Assembly: GCA_024636975.1 (NCBI GenBank)
Contig: JAGXGA010000032.1
Location: 62,001-126,000, forward strand
Origin: Mariniphaga sp.
Lineage (GTDB): Bacteria; Bacteroidota; Bacteroidia; Bacteroidales; Prolixibacteraceae
DNA length: 64,000 nt
Direction: 5' to 3'
Both the position numbers and the translations under genes were made by a program. The notes under the pieces are model-generated. The model saw nothing but the letters and a program-made list of their open reading frames with translations. It did not search any database and was not told the DNA's origin. This document shows positions 45,386 to 51,031 of this stretch, one piece after another (position 1 is the stretch's first letter; each line of letters starts with the position of its first letter).

Positions 45386-45490
45386 TAAAATATACTTTTA
45401 AAAGCAGGAAATATTAAAATCATTTTAATATAAAAAATTACCTTAAACTTTAAATTTATCAGAAAAAAGTGAAATTTACTTTCAATTCAT

Positions 45491-45520
45491 TTTGATTTAT
45501 AAATATAGTTTTTACATTTG
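45491..45520 (+). promoter_or_regulatory. Promoter of the ilv operon
   Basis: TTTG (45491-45494) and a perfect TACATTTG (45513-45520) are spaced by 18 bases. Transcription would start near 45527, about 20 bases ahead of the leader peptide. Confidence 0.65.
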
Positions 45521-45545
45521 CCTCTATAAATGAGTTTTTAAGAAA

Positions 45546-45617
45546 TGAAATTATTTGCTACATATATTATTCTAGTCGTCCTCGTGGTCATTTCCAGTAT
45601 TACCGGGGAAGGATAGA
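45546..45617 (+). CDS. ilv leader peptide (23 aa)
   Basis: This short open frame encodes a 23-residue peptide. Residues 8-16 are IILVVLVVI and Ile19 follows, so ten of the twelve residues 8-19 are Ile, Leu or Val, the products of the pathway encoded downstream. ATT, GTC, CTC, GTG and CTA codons supply the control run. It stops at TAG (45615-45617), about 30 bases before the terminator hairpin. Ribosome stalling at these codons when charged Ile/Leu/Val tRNAs are scarce would be the sensing step. The mechanism is inferred from the well-known enterobacterial ilv and leu leaders. Confidence 0.85.
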
Positions 45618-45676
45618 ATTATATGTAATTAAAAAATACGTACTGGCCTTTCCCGAAAACGGGGAAGGCTTTTTTA
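45605..45676 (+). promoter_or_regulatory. ilv attenuator: Three-segment transcription attenuator of the ilv operon
   Basis: Segment A, CGGGGAAGG (45605-45613), lies in the last leader codons. Segment B, GCCTTTCCCG (45647-45656), can pair with A, or with segment C, CGGGGAAGGC (45661-45670), over an AAAA loop. B:C is followed by TTTTTT (45671-45676) and forms a 10-bp terminator with one G-T pair. A repeats the first nine bases of C exactly, so A:B and B:C are mutually exclusive. A ribosome finishing the leader covers A and allows termination; one stalled earlier at the I/L/V codons leaves A free to sequester B. Confidence 0.85.
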
Positions 45677-45707
45677 ATAAAAAAACAGCAAAAAAAGAGT
45701 TAAAAGT

Positions 45708-47540
45708 ATGCAAATTCCATTACGAAGCAACACTACTACCCAGGGCCGCAGAATGGCCGGCGCCCGAAGCCTTTGGCGGGCCAACGGTATGAAAGAGGAA
45801 CATTTTGGGCGGCCTGTAATTGCCGTTGTAAACTCATTTACCCAGTTTGTTCCCGGCCATGCCCACCTGCACACCATCGGGCAATATATTAAAAGCCTTA
45901 TCGAAAAAGAAGGGTATTTTGGCGCAGAATTTAATACAATTGCCATCGACGACGGCATTGCAATGGGGCACGATGGTATGCTGTACTCGCTTCCTTCGCG
46001 CGATGTTATAGCCGACAGTGTTGAATACATGTGCAACGGACATAAGGTGGATGCAATGATTTGCATATCGAACTGTGATAAAATAACGCCCGGCATGCTG
46101 ATGGCTGCCATGCGTCTTAATATTCCCGCCGTATTTGTTTCAGGCGGACCAATGGAAGCCGGTGAAATTGGAAATAAACATTACGACCTGGTAGATGCAA
46201 TGGTTATGGCTGCCGATCAGTCGGTTTCCGATCAGGAACTTGAAACCATTGAACAGAATGCATGCCCCACTTGCGGTTCATGCTCCGGAATGTTTACCGC
46301 CAATTCAATGAACTGTCTTGCCGAAGCTATCGGCCTGGCATTGCCTGGCAACGGAACCATTGTTGCCACACATGCTAACCGTAAAAAGCTTTTTGAAGAA
46401 GGAGTGGAAAAAATTCTTTCTGCTACCAAAAAATATTATTTTGAAGGCGACGAATCGGTATTGCCACGAAATATTGCCAACCGGGATGCATTTTTAAATG
46501 CCATGAAACTGGATATTGCCATGGGTGGTTCAACAAATACTGTGTTGCACCTGCTGGCCATTGCTCATGAAGCAGGAGTGGAATTCACAATGAATGACAT
46601 CGACCGGCTTTCAAAAATTACTCCGAATCTCTGTAAAGTAGCACCCAGCTCACATTACCATGTTCAGGATGTGAACCGTGCAGGAGGAATTCTTTCAATA
46701 ATGGCTGAACTCGACAGGGCAGGTCTTATGGAAACCTCGGTGAACCGCATTGATGGCCGCACGCTTAAAGAAGCCATTAAAGCCTATGATATCACACAGC
46801 CCTCCCTTTCGGCCGATGCCATGCAACGCTATCTTTCTTCACCCGGAGATGGAAAAAGAAACCTGGTACTGGCATCGCAGGAAAACTATTATCCGGAACT
46901 GGACACCGACCGGGAAAAAGGATGCATACGTAATATGGAAAATGCTTACAACAAAGAAGGCGGTCTGGCTGTTCTTTACGGCAACATTGCTGAAAAAGGA
47001 TGCATAGTAAAAACTGCCGGAGTGGATACCTCAGTATTTAAATTTACAGGTACTGCTAAAGTGTTCGATTCGCAAGATGATGCCGTTAACGGAATTATAG
47101 GCGACAAGGTGCAAAAAGGTGATATAGTGATTATCCGTTACGAAGGGCCAAAAGGCGGGCCGGGAATGCAGGAGATGCTCTACCCCACTTCCTATATCAA
47201 ATCGATGCAGCTCGATAAATACTGCGCATTGATAACTGATGGACGTTTTTCAGGTGGAACATCAGGATTGTCGATAGGACATGTTTCTCCTGAAGCGGCT
47301 GCCGGTGGGGCCATAGGATTGATTAAGGAAAATGATGTTATTGAAATTGATATTGCAAGCCGCTCAATCAATCTGAAGATTTCAGATGAGGAACTTACAG
47401 CACGAAGAATGCTGGAGGAAGCAAAAGGCAATGCCGCCTTTACACCGGCTGAACGGAAAAGAGAAGTTTCAAAAGCGCTGAAAGCATATGCAAGTTTGGT
47501 TTCATCAGCCGATATGGGCGCCGTTCGTTTAATTGATTAA
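45708..47540 (+). CDS. ilvD: Dihydroxy-acid dehydratase
   Basis: This Fe-S enzyme dehydrates 2,3-dihydroxy-isovalerate and -methylvalerate to the 2-keto acids of valine and isoleucine. IlvD motifs are clear: [39 protein letters not shown] with cluster-type cysteines, [18 protein letters not shown], and [14 protein letters not shown] with [25 protein letters not shown]. At 610 aa it has the usual length. It is the first gene of the operon behind the leader-peptide attenuator, with a 30-bp gap after the terminator's T run, and is followed by ilvB after 36 bp. Confidence 0.97.
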
Positions 47541-47576: not shown

Positions 47577-49274
47577 ATGACAAAGAAGAAAATTACTGGT
47601 TCACAAGCCGTTATTCTTTCCTTGCTGGAAGAAGGAGTTGATACCATATTCGGATATCCGGGAGGGGCAATCATGCCCATTTACGATGCATTGTATGACC
47701 ACGATAAGAATGTGAAACATATTCTGACCCGTCATGAGCAGGGCGCAGTGCATGCCGCCGAAGGTTATGCCAGGGTTACCGGCAAGGCAGGCGTCTGTTT
47801 TGCCACTTCGGGCCCCGGAGCTACAAATTTAATAACCGGTATTGCCGATGCTATGATTGATTCAACTCCACTGGTGTGTATAACCGGCCAGGTGGCCTCA
47901 CCCCTTTTGGGAACCGATGCCTTCCAGGAATCGGATGTGCTGGGTATCTCAATGCCAATAACCAAATGGAGTTACCAGATTACTTCACCTGAAGAAATCC
48001 CTGAAGCCATTGCTCAGGCATTTTATATTGCACAGACAGGCCGTCCCGGGCCCGTATTGCTCGACATTACCAAGGATGCTCAGTTTGGCGAACTTGACTT
48101 TGAGTACAAGAAATGTCGTAAAATAAGAAGTTACGTGCCGGAGCCTCCCATCGATCCGTTCAAGGTAAAGGAAGCTGCTGATATTATAGATGCAGCTAAA
48201 AAACCACTGATCCTGTTCGGGCAGGGAGTGATCCTCAGCCGTGCCGAAGAAGCACTGAAGGCATTTGTTGAGAAAACAGGCATTCCTGCTGCATGGACTC
48301 TGCTTGGTCTTTCTGCTCTGCCTACCGACCACCCTCTTAATGTTGGGATGCTTGGTATGCATGGAAATTATGGCCCCAACCTGTTAACCAACCAAGCCGA
48401 TGTGATTATAGCCGTAGGGATGCGGTTCGACGACAGGGTTACGGGAAAGGCAGGAACTTATGCAACAAATGCAAAAGTGATTCACCTGGAAATCGATCCA
48501 TCGGAAATTAATAAAATTATTAAAGCCGATGTGGCCGTTTTGGGTAATGCCAACAAAACCTTAAAAATGCTGACCGACAACGTTAAGCCCAACCAACACG
48601 AAGAATGGGTTGAAGAATTCAGGGAGTGCTACCGGATTGAAGATGAAAAAATTATTCATAACGAAGTTTTTCCTGAAAAACCCGGACTTACCATGGGGGA
48701 AGTTATCCGTATTGCAGGAGATAAAACCAATCATGAATCCATTCTGGTAACCGATGTAGGCCAGCACCAGATGGTTGCTTCGCGTTATTTCAAATTCAGG
48801 CATCCCCGCAGCAACGTCACTTCCGGCGGACTCGGAACAATGGGATTTGGCCTTCCTGCCAGTATGGGCGCTCAACTTGGCGCTCCCGACCGTACGGTAA
48901 TTGCGGTTATTGGTGATGGCGGTTTCCAGATGACCATCCAGGAGTTGGGAACCATAGTACAAAACAAATTGCCGGTAAAAATCATTATACTTAACAATAA
49001 TTTTCTTGGAATGGTACGCCAGTGGCAGCAGCTGTTTTTCGAAAAAAGATATTCATTCACCGAATTGCAAAATCCTGATTTCATTGCCATCGGCAAAGGA
49101 TTTGGAATTGCAGGGCATAAAGTTGAAGCGCGTGAAGACCTTGAAAGCGGAATACAAAGAATGATCGACCACCAGGGGCCTTACCTGCTTGAAGTGGTTA
49201 TCGAGAAAGAAGATAATGTATTTCCAATGATACCTACCGGAGCTTCTGTATCTGACATAATGCTGGAACCCTAA
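47577..49274 (+). CDS. ilvB: Acetolactate synthase, large subunit
   Basis: The catalytic ThDP- and FAD-dependent subunit condenses pyruvate with pyruvate or 2-ketobutyrate. The N-terminal GVDTIFGYPGGAIMPIYDAL and LTRHEQGAVHAAEGYAR (with the ThDP-activating Glu) are followed by CFATSGPGATNLITGIADAM. The C-terminal ThDP motif GDGGFQMTIQELGTI ... ILNNNFLGMVRQWQ is complete. At 565 aa the length is normal. It is followed after 54 bp by the regulatory subunit. Confidence 0.97.
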   Translation: MTKKKITGSQAVILSLLEEGVDTIFGYPGGAIMPIYDALYDHDKNVKHILTRHEQGAVHAAEGYARVTGKAGVCFATSGPGATNLITGIADAMIDSTPLVCITGQVASPLLGTDAFQESDVLGISMPITKWSYQITSPEEIPEAIAQAFYIAQTGRPGPVLLDITKDAQFGELDFEYKKCRKIRSYVPEPPIDPFKVKEAADIIDAAKKPLILFGQGVILSRAEEALKAFVEKTGIPAAWTLLGLSALPTDHPLNVGMLGMHGNYGPNLLTNQADVIIAVGMRFDDRVTGKAGTYATNAKVIHLEIDPSEINKIIKADVAVLGNANKTLKMLTDNVKPNQHEEWVEEFRECYRIEDEKIIHNEVFPEKPGLTMGEVIRIAGDKTNHESILVTDVGQHQMVASRYFKFRHPRSNVTSGGLGTMGFGLPASMGAQLGAPDRTVIAVIGDGGFQMTIQELGTIVQNKLPVKIIILNNNFLGMVRQWQQLFFEKRYSFTELQNPDFIAIGKGFGIAGHKVEAREDLESGIQRMIDHQGPYLLEVVIEKEDNVFPMIPTGASVSDIMLEP

Positions 49275-49328: not shown

Positions 49329-49871
49329 ATGAAAAGGGAATATATAATATCGGTTTACTCCGAAAACCACATCGGATTACTCACGCGCATTACAATCGTT
49401 TTTACCCGAAGGAAAGTAAACATCGAAAGCCTGACCGTGTCAGAATCTGCTATTCATGGAGTTTATAAGTTCACAATTGTCATAAAATCGACCGAAGAGC
49501 AGGTAATAAAAATTGTTGGGCAGATAGAAAAAATAATTGATGTCCTGAAAGCATTCTATCACACCAACGAAGAAATGATATACCAGGAAATTGCTTTATA
49601 TAAAGTACCAACGGAAGCGCTTTATGAAAGCGATACCATTGAAAAGGTTGTCAGAGATTCAGGAGCCCGCATTCTTGAGATAACACGGGAGTACACAGTG
49701 ATTGAAAAAACAGGTCATAAACAAGAAACCCAGGCATTGTTTGAAGAATTAAACAAAGCGAAGGTTATGCAGTTTATACGTTCAGGACGCGTAGCGCTTA
49801 CACGGGATCCGATTGAACGGCTTTCCGAATTCCTGAAGGAACGGGATGCGCTTCTTGAAAGCCTTGATTAG
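49329..49871 (+). CDS. ilvN: Acetolactate synthase, small regulatory subunit
   Basis: An N-terminal ACT domain (YIISVYSENHIGLLTRITIVFTRRKVNIESLTVSES, about 4-39) binds the feedback inhibitor, usually valine. It is followed by the second ACT-like half typical of IlvN/IlvH (about 85-165; IALYKVPTEALYESDTIEKVVRDSGARILE). The length of 180 aa is close to the ~165-175 usual for IlvH-type subunits, with some extra C-terminal residues. It directly follows ilvB and precedes ilvC by 113 bp. Calling it ilvN rather than ilvH is a naming choice. Confidence 0.92.
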   Translation: MKREYIISVYSENHIGLLTRITIVFTRRKVNIESLTVSESAIHGVYKFTIVIKSTEEQVIKIVGQIEKIIDVLKAFYHTNEEMIYQEIALYKVPTEALYESDTIEKVVRDSGARILEITREYTVIEKTGHKQETQALFEELNKAKVMQFIRSGRVALTRDPIERLSEFLKERDALLESLD

Positions 49872-49984: not shown

Positions 49985-51031
49985 ATGGCACAAATTAACT
50001 TTGGCGGAGAAACCGAAAAAGTAGTTCTCCGCGAAGAATTTTCAGTAGAAAAAGCACGCGAAGTATTAAAAAATGAAATCATAGCCATTATAGGTTATGG
50101 AGTACAGGGACCTGCCCAGGCCCTAAACATGAAAGACAACGGGTTTAAAGTTATCATCGGTCAGGCGCCGGAATTCAAGGAAGACTGGGACAAGGCAATC
50201 CGCGATGGATTTGTACCCGGAGAAACACTCTTTCCTGTTGAGGAAGCAGCCCGTTTGGGTACTGTTGTTCAGTACCTGGTATCGGATGCTGCCCAACGCC
50301 TTATATGGCCTAAATTAGAACCATGTCTTAAAGAAGGAGATGCCCTTTATTTTTCACATGGGTTTTCAATCACCTACAAGGAGCAAACCGGAGTAATCCC
50401 TCCTGATTTTGTGGATGTTATTCTCGTAGCTCCCAAAGGATCGGGCGCAAGTGTACGTACCAATTTTCTGGCCGGAAACGGTATCAACTCCAGCTATGCA
50501 GTGTTCCAGGATTATACCGGTAAAGCCGAAGAACGTGCCATTGCCCTTGGTATAGCAATCGGCTCGGGATACCTCTTCCCAACCACATTTGAAAACGAAG
50601 TATATTCCGATTTAACCGGAGAACGTGGTGTGTTGATGGGTGCACTTGCAGGAATTATTGAAGCTCAGTACAAAGTGCTGCGCGATAATGGTCACAGCCC
50701 GTCGGAAGCATTCAACGAAACAGTTGAAGAGCTTACCCAAAGCCTCATCCGCCTGGTCGACCAAAACGGTATGGACTGGATGTATGCCAACTGCAGCGCA
50801 ACCGCCCAGCGCGGTGCCCTCGACTGGCGTCATAAATTCCGTGAGGCTACACTGCCTGTATTCAACGAATTATATGAAAGTGTAAAATCGGGTGCAGAAA
50901 CCAAACGGGTTCTGGATTCCACTTCAAGCGCCGATTATAAAACAAGTTTGAATGCCGAACTCAAAGAAATGAGGGAATCCGAACTCTGGCAGGCCGGCGC
51001 AGCTGTCAGAAAGCTGAGACCTGGGAAATAG
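49985..51031 (+). CDS. ilvC: Ketol-acid reductoisomerase
   Basis: This NAD(P)H- and Mg2+-dependent enzyme converts acetolactate-type acids to dihydroxy acids, the substrate step before IlvD. GYGVQGPAQALNMKDNGFKVIIG is the Rossmann nucleotide-binding motif (about 38-60), and DVILVAPKGSGASVRTNFLAGNGINSSYAV and PTTFENEVYSDLTGERGVLMGALAGIIEAQYKVLRDNGHSPSEAFNETVEE hold the metal-binding Asp/Glu region. The 348-aa length fits the single-repeat class I form. It is the last gene of the operon, ending at a clear terminator. The gene order D-B-N-C matches other Bacteroidota. Confidence 0.97.
   Translation: MAQINFGGETEKVVLREEFSVEKAREVLKNEIIAIIGYGVQGPAQALNMKDNGFKVIIGQAPEFKEDWDKAIRDGFVPGETLFPVEEAARLGTVVQYLVSDAAQRLIWPKLEPCLKEGDALYFSHGFSITYKEQTGVIPPDFVDVILVAPKGSGASVRTNFLAGNGINSSYAVFQDYTGKAEERAIALGIAIGSGYLFPTTFENEVYSDLTGERGVLMGALAGIIEAQYKVLRDNGHSPSEAFNETVEELTQSLIRLVDQNGMDWMYANCSATAQRGALDWRHKFREATLPVFNELYESVKSGAETKRVLDSTSSADYKTSLNAELKEMRESELWQAGAAVRKLRPGK

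Follow-up and report, generated by a model that had tools for sequence, protein, structure and literature searches.

How is the branched-chain amino acid operon of this Mariniphaga genome controlled? In the window, that is, the whole stretch of 64,000 nucleotides analysed here, with all features described below on its plus strand, we identified ilvD, encoding dihydroxy-acid dehydratase (45708..47540; NCBIfam TIGR00110, 783.9 bits), ilvB and ilvN/H, encoding the large and small subunits of acetolactate synthase (47577..49274, TIGR00118, and 49329..49871, TIGR00119), and ilvC, encoding ketol-acid reductoisomerase (49985..51031, TIGR00465), each above the cut-off of its family. The first-pass annotation had placed a leader-peptide attenuator responding to isoleucine, leucine and valine (I/L/V) upstream of these genes, and this assignment is supported by a conserved reading frame and covarying RNA pairing, along with the spacing between the codons and the antiterminator and the operon context: ilvD-ilvB-ilvN-ilvC encodes the synthesis of the very amino acids that the leader would sense. 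We predict, with a probability of roughly 0.93, that the region is a classical four-segment, ribosome-dependent transcription attenuator of ilvDBNC. Enterobacterial leader-peptide attenuators, such as those of trp, ilvGMEDA and leu, combine regulatory codons with a 1:2 protector, a 2:3 antiterminator and a 3:4 terminator.

The leader open reading frame (45545..45616; MKLFATYIILVVLVVISSITGEG, then stop) is recognized from its sequence, its conservation and the pattern of gaps in an alignment of relatives. It comprises 23 codons, with the start codon at 45545-45547 and the stop codon at 45614-45616, and ten of the 12 residues from 8 to 19 are I, L or V, exactly as first described; the annotated features are real, although most of their positions had been given one base too high (the frame, for example, starts at 45545). 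Codons 8-16 (ATT ATT CTA GTC GTC CTC GTG GTC ATT; 45566..45592) are the Ile/Leu/Val regulatory codons, marked by an enrichment of rare codons. When the upstream region (408 nt) was dinucleotide-shuffled 3000 times, an ATG frame in which I/L/V codons made up 10 or more of 12 arose only twice. Further upstream, a candidate -33 element, TTTG (45491..45494), and a candidate -7 element, TACATTTG, of the form TAnnTTTG (45513..45520), resemble the Bacteroidota promoter consensus. Of the 65 loci whose sequence reaches far enough, 52 have a TAnnTTTG motif within the 75 nt that precede the leader start. Elsewhere in the genome, a 57-base BLAST match to the promoter region (L002) was set aside as AT-rich intergenic DNA with, by eye, no I/L/V leader.

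The stop codon is followed, after 28 nt (close to the 30 or so bases first estimated), by a predicted intrinsic terminator at 45645-45675, which sits before the first gene. It consists of segment 3, the 5' arm (45645..45655), a loop (45656-45659), segment 4, the 3' arm (45660..45670), and a run of six T (45670..45675), with 11 pairs, seven of them G-C and two G-U. The end of the leader frame carries a copy of the terminator 3' arm, CGGGGAAGG, which had been reported as a nine-base repeat at 45605-45613 and in fact lies at 45604-45612. This strand, A, forms the first half of segment 2 and can pair with segment 3, so that the ilvD leader contains a predicted antiterminator that shares arm 3 with the terminator and is mutually exclusive with it. 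When the stretch 45527-45644 was shuffled 2000 times, a contiguous nine-base partner for arm 3 (G-U allowed) arose four times, and a duplex of equally low energy five times. Given the rarity of both the I/L/V run and the arm-3 partner in shuffled sequence, together with their conservation in relatives, a chance origin is unlikely.

To assess this conservation, we collected the best 80 of 185 ilvD loci, a sample hence biased to near relatives, and used a script requiring a leader with at least six I/L/V codons in 12 and a terminator inside the 400 nt upstream (less at contig ends). The script passed 68 of the 80 loci, and we count 66 after leaving out L074, which looks genuine with a longer linker, and L076, which looks spurious. 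Among the other 14 loci, the upstream region of four (L035, L050, L061 and L069) is cut by a contig end, two (L070 and L074) look genuine by eye, and the eight titled outside Bacteroidota (L060, L064, L066, L075, L076, L077, L079 and L081) show no attenuator upstream. Thus, every Bacteroidota-titled locus with an uncut upstream region has an attenuator, by script or by eye. Near the leader stop, A and arm 3 form at least eight contiguous pairs in 55 of the 66 relatives and five to seven in the remaining 11, which include the L037-L041 group. As an aside, the IlvD proteins of L066, L076, L077 and L079, which belong to Desulfopila, Desulfosediminicola and a Desulfobulbaceae MAG, are 69-70% identical to that of the window, with no attenuator seen upstream of their genes, which would fit transfer of the gene without its switch.

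A wider sample placed the attenuator across the order: among 119 of its genomes, IlvD was found at E 1e-200 in 46, leaving 44 upstream regions once the window's own genome and G223, whose contig starts at ilvD, were removed. With at least seven I/L/V codons in 12 and a terminator required and no threshold on A:3 pairing, 30 of the 44 regions passed, two of them (L149 and L154) with A:3 matches of only six bases, and six more were recognized by eye (L143-L147 and L160), which brings the count to 36 of 44; no clear attenuator was seen in the other eight (seven with none, and L169, ambiguous by eye). A search of 118 genomes of the phylum at E 1e-150 recovered IlvD in the window's own genome only. 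In a sample of 60 genomes of the class at E 1e-40, 12 genomes outside the order matched, with pieces 30-52% identical that are probably paralogues in part. As a rough control, 12 regions from 11 of these 12 genomes (G302 left aside) were run through the script, and one passed (L180, which looks spurious). Another of these class-level genomes has, at L178, what looks by eye like a genuine case: the leader MLLWVINNVIIVLVGLIPHP, then GAATGGCT and a hairpin with GGCCATTC, a possible attenuator outside the order. Finally, a covariance model built from the alignment described below was run on 40 genomes, including the window's own and probably others that contribute rows to that alignment; among the matches listed, 26 of the 33 genomes with IlvD have one immediately upstream of ilvD.

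For the pairing and translation analyses, we aligned 24 sequences of the window's clade, rather than all 67 loci, with MAFFT, which is codon-blind (alignment A1). The leader frame, the I/L/V run and the alternative pairing were what the first-pass annotation had proposed to look for in relatives, and frame and pairing are both conserved, with the pairings covarying; all counts of covariation overstate the number of independent events, the sequences being related. In the terminator helix, 99.6% of cells are paired and 11 cells are changed on both sides, values that none of 500 shuffles reached, while the number of pairs changed on both sides was equalled in 42 of 500. Standard pairs fill 96.7% of the cells of the A:3 helix, and 21 cells show changes on both sides (no shuffle of 500 matched either value); three of its pairs show such changes (reached by 36 of 500). 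In 63 of 65 distinct loci, the A:3 duplex formed by the locus's own strands is lower in energy than the average over swapped partners; for the median locus, 10% of dinucleotide shuffles do as well.

Beyond these two helices, the alignment and the folds point to a protector hairpin, missed by the first-pass annotation, made of an outer and an inner helix. The outer strand of segment 1 (45559..45574, leader codons 5-10) pairs with the second half of segment 2 (45614..45627), that is, with the bases from the stop codon onward. This helix is present in the minimum free energy (MFE) fold of the window sequence (z = -4.07) and reappears in other lineages with quite different sequence. In the alignment, 70.8% of its cells are paired (83.6% in its first half and just 52.9% in its second), eight of its 12 pairs are changed on both sides (as high in one of 500 shuffles), and 21 cells carry such changes (none of 500). 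In only 50 of 65 loci does the own 1:2 duplex lie under the average for swapped partners, and for the median locus 20% of dinucleotide shuffles do as well. The inner strand of segment 1 (codons 15-17; 45587..45594), for which the alignment fold and covariation give weaker support, can pair with A: 94.6% of cells are paired, and none of 500 shuffles has as many cells (eight) changed on both sides, but its two pairs changed on both sides were reached by 126 of 500 shuffles, which makes it the weakest of the helices. Sliding the inner helix by two columns gives three such pairs and six cells, versus two and eight unshifted. The MFE fold of the window departs from the family consensus in its inner pairing, which is shifted so that A pairs with neighbouring codons; either way, A lies inside the hairpin. 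At one position followed through segment 1, A, arm 3 and arm 4, the bases are T/A/T/A in 10 sequences, C/G/C/G in seven, T/G/C/G in four and T/A/T/G in three, and are thus fully in step in 17 of 24. RNAalifold by itself found the terminator and the inner helix but not the outer one, a failure that variable gaps in the linker may explain.

These observations bear on the design of the switch. The first-pass annotation had described a compact three-segment device, unlike the four-segment enterobacterial version, in which arm 4 is the only competitor of A for arm 3, the outcome is left to the ribosome, and there is no protector. A:3 and 3:4 are the best-paired helices, and support for the protector is weak in its inner helix and in half of its outer one; both points speak for such a device. 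However, the outer helix has compensatory changes in eight of its 12 pairs, is seen again, with different sequence, in other lineages, is part of the MFE fold, and has a similar counterpart in the MFE fold of the leuA leader discussed below; we consequently dropped the three-segment model, which we regard as very unlikely. The protector hairpin, with an outer helix that covaries (one half of it weak) and a weaker inner helix that sequesters A, argues for the classical four-segment logic.

The leader frame is probably translated, judging from its pattern of substitution. In the alignment, all 29 gaps within the leader have length 3, most of them representing single events shared by many rows (about six events, counted by eye), versus seven of 69 in the linker. 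Entropy per codon position is 0.65, 0.18 and 0.95 bits across the 24 sequences, the second position being the best conserved. Read in the true frame, these sequences contain 205 I/L/V codons among 214 and no stops; the other two frames contain 1 of 238 and 42 of 214, with stops. Codon choice is also skewed: in the 67 leaders, compared with 36 long open reading frames of the window, GTC makes up 57.8% versus 8.3% of Val codons, and CTC and CTA 24.5% versus 6.5% and 21.1% versus 4.5% of their family, respectively. Since GTC takes part in the inner helix, pairing constraints may account for part of this enrichment.

Such a signature is hard to reconcile with the notion that the short frame is untranslated and that the region is a constitutive terminator or an RNA binding a metabolite or protein. 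The strong predicted terminator would suit that notion, yet frame-preserving gaps, conservation by codon position and a high I/L/V content confined to the true frame would be unexpected, as would an I/L/V run whose end tracks A at about one ribosome footprint; moreover, at the gathering threshold, no Rfam family other than a tRNA was found in the window. We consider this explanation extremely unlikely. The hydrophobic character of the leader peptide, with a hydrophobic stretch of about 12 residues, might instead suggest a gene for a small membrane or secreted peptide that happens to lie before ilvD. Against this stand the recurrence of the leader before ilvD and, as a second type, before leuA, the RNA arms that vary largely in step, and a bias that concerns codons and not residues alone, so that we assign this scenario a negligible probability.

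Over 60 distinct leaders, the distance from the last I/L/V codon of the run to the start of A has a median of 14 nt (IQR 12-17, range 4-39), and the position of the run end follows that of A (Spearman 0.65, with relatedness ignored). By comparison, a ribosome covers about 12 nt downstream, according to one report (PMC4833913). The stop codon is less regular: A ends at or before its first base in 31 of 66 relatives and starts within four bases before it, or later, in 35 of 66. Hence, the idea that the antiterminator is folded into the leader's coding sequence holds for the window, where A overlaps the end of the frame, but does not generalize. In many relatives, the A strand holds a TGA (TGAGAAAGG; the same place in the window is 45604-45616), which some use as their leader stop, whereas others in the window's clade read it in another frame as ...SEKG; this differing use implies that the stop codon and the A strand have drifted past each other.

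We modelled stalling by hiding the bases covered by a ribosome, assumed to extend 12 nt past the codon, with codons 6-24 tried in turn. With the ribosome at codons 6-16, the stretch up to arm 3 folds at -16.0 to -20.3 kcal/mol, and at codon 17 or later at -5.8 kcal/mol or weaker. In this computation, stalls as far as codon 16, where the run ends, leave A exposed, whereas a ribosome at codon 17 or beyond hides it, the exact codon depending on the footprint; thus, under the assumed footprint, a ribosome stalled on the regulatory codons would free A and one terminating at the stop codon would cover it. Once arm 4 is present, forcing A:3 gives a fold no better than the full MFE, which is equally low or up to 3.5 kcal/mol lower; the switch must therefore be kinetic.

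On this basis, we infer termination, stalling and regulation by the supply of isoleucine, leucine and valine, as follows. When charged Ile, Leu and Val tRNAs are ample, the leading ribosome would reach the stop codon and cover A, upon which the 3:4 terminator would form and RNA polymerase would stop at the T-run. A ribosome stalled on codons 8-16 would cover segment 1 and open the protector hairpin, leaving A free to pair with segment 3 ahead of the synthesis of segment 4; the terminator would be blocked and the operon read. If the leader is not translated, the 1:2 protector hairpin would hold A, and the terminator would form.

The same design appears to be used more than once. Twelve of the secondary matches to the covariance model, fetched among those listed, comprise 10 upstream of a leuA-like gene, one Trp leader (L124, with a WWW motif) and one without a leader (L122). 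For two of the ten leuA-like genes, 150-residue pieces compared with NCBIfam had 2-isopropylmalate synthase as the best family, with scores below the whole-protein cut-off because only a piece of the protein was given; the remaining eight have a similar N-terminus by eye. One of the two compared with NCBIfam is in the window's own genome, where a second predicted attenuator precedes a leuA-like gene (L120:1519-1658, contig C36 of genome G000), with the leader MNNLNNTSILSLIIGIILLIQKK, arms GAGAATGG and CCATTCTC, and a fold z of -6.92. The leuA leader contains Ile and Leu without Val, and a similar one occurs at nine other fetched loci. In addition, tandem I/L/V units were found before ilvD at three of 67 loci by script (L028, L034 and L057) and by eye at L033, where the script had picked the upstream unit of the pair, and at L125-L127, with L126 identical in sequence to L028. 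The arms of tandem units differ by one base (CCATTCTC, then CCTTTCTC), and because the difference is this small, cross-pairing between units is possible. The script detected no second unit in the window. Taken across the order, we tentatively propose, at slightly less than even odds, a set of branched-chain leader attenuators before ilvD and leuA, in some lineages paired in tandem before ilvD, in which the run is held one footprint from A while the stop codon drifts, so that a spacing ruler, rather than the stop codon, would be what is selected. Two stall signals would be multiplied or combined where units stand in tandem.

The ilvD leader resembles the enterobacterial attenuators in its regulatory codons, its 1:2, 2:3 and 3:4 helices and an operon for the sensed amino acids. 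It differs in that ilvD comes first in the operon, the antiterminator strand lies on or adjoins the leader stop codon, the host belongs to Bacteroidota, and the window matches no Rfam leader family at threshold. Scanned in full at the gathering threshold, the window yielded only a tRNA, with no T-box, riboswitch or enterobacterial leader family, and 16 related loci yielded nothing at threshold except Bacteroid-trp in L124. A relaxed scan of 45400-45800 gave sub-threshold candidates only, which were rejected (Phe_leader at 15.5 of 55 bits and ncr1575 at 34.4 of 60).

Within Bacteroidota, one of the closest described systems is the trp leader of the Rfam family Bacteroid-trp (RF01692; PMC2864571). 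It is likewise a leader-peptide attenuator, but with Trp codons and a different sequence. L124 fits it at 56.1 bits; the other 15 scanned loci have no match, nor does the window, at the gathering threshold or in 45400-45800 at E up to 10, and the ilv leader has no Trp. In another lineage of the phylum, Flavobacterium psychrophilum, transcriptome data are reported to give strong clues that leader-peptide attenuators precede amino-acid operons (PMC9723704), and a map of B. thetaiotaomicron mentions, in long 5' untranslated regions, short frames reminiscent of leader peptides (PMC7366714). According to a 2010 survey of premature terminators, leader-peptide systems had been known only from Proteobacteria and Actinobacteria until the survey added a case in Firmicutes; Bacteroidetes are not named in its account (PMC2965389). 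Branched-chain attenuators of ilv operons outside enterobacteria, in other phyla, include a leucine-rich one of Staphylococcus aureus (PMC5794164) and that of Corynebacterium glutamicum ilvBNC (PMC11857589). For an ilv or leu attenuator in Bacteroidota, we found no Rfam family and no report among the open-access titles and beginnings of abstracts that were listed. The initial remark that such attenuators are little described in Bacteroidota is thus a fair one, although not in an absolute sense, given Bacteroid-trp and the F. psychrophilum work.

To conclude, the predicted mechanism is the textbook one, with its ilv and leu cases seen widely in an order in which attenuation is little described. 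The interest of this clean case, which is more complete than the first-pass annotation had it, lies in that breadth, the ruler and the tandem units. If the prediction is correct, these attenuators would provide a defined amino-acid sensor for branched-chain synthesis, absent from Rfam, in the gut and environmental Bacteroidota of this order, and their natural diversity would be wide enough for testing the ribosome-position rule of attenuation. It would also mean that the coupling of transcription to translation in these bacteria is tight enough to support classical attenuation.
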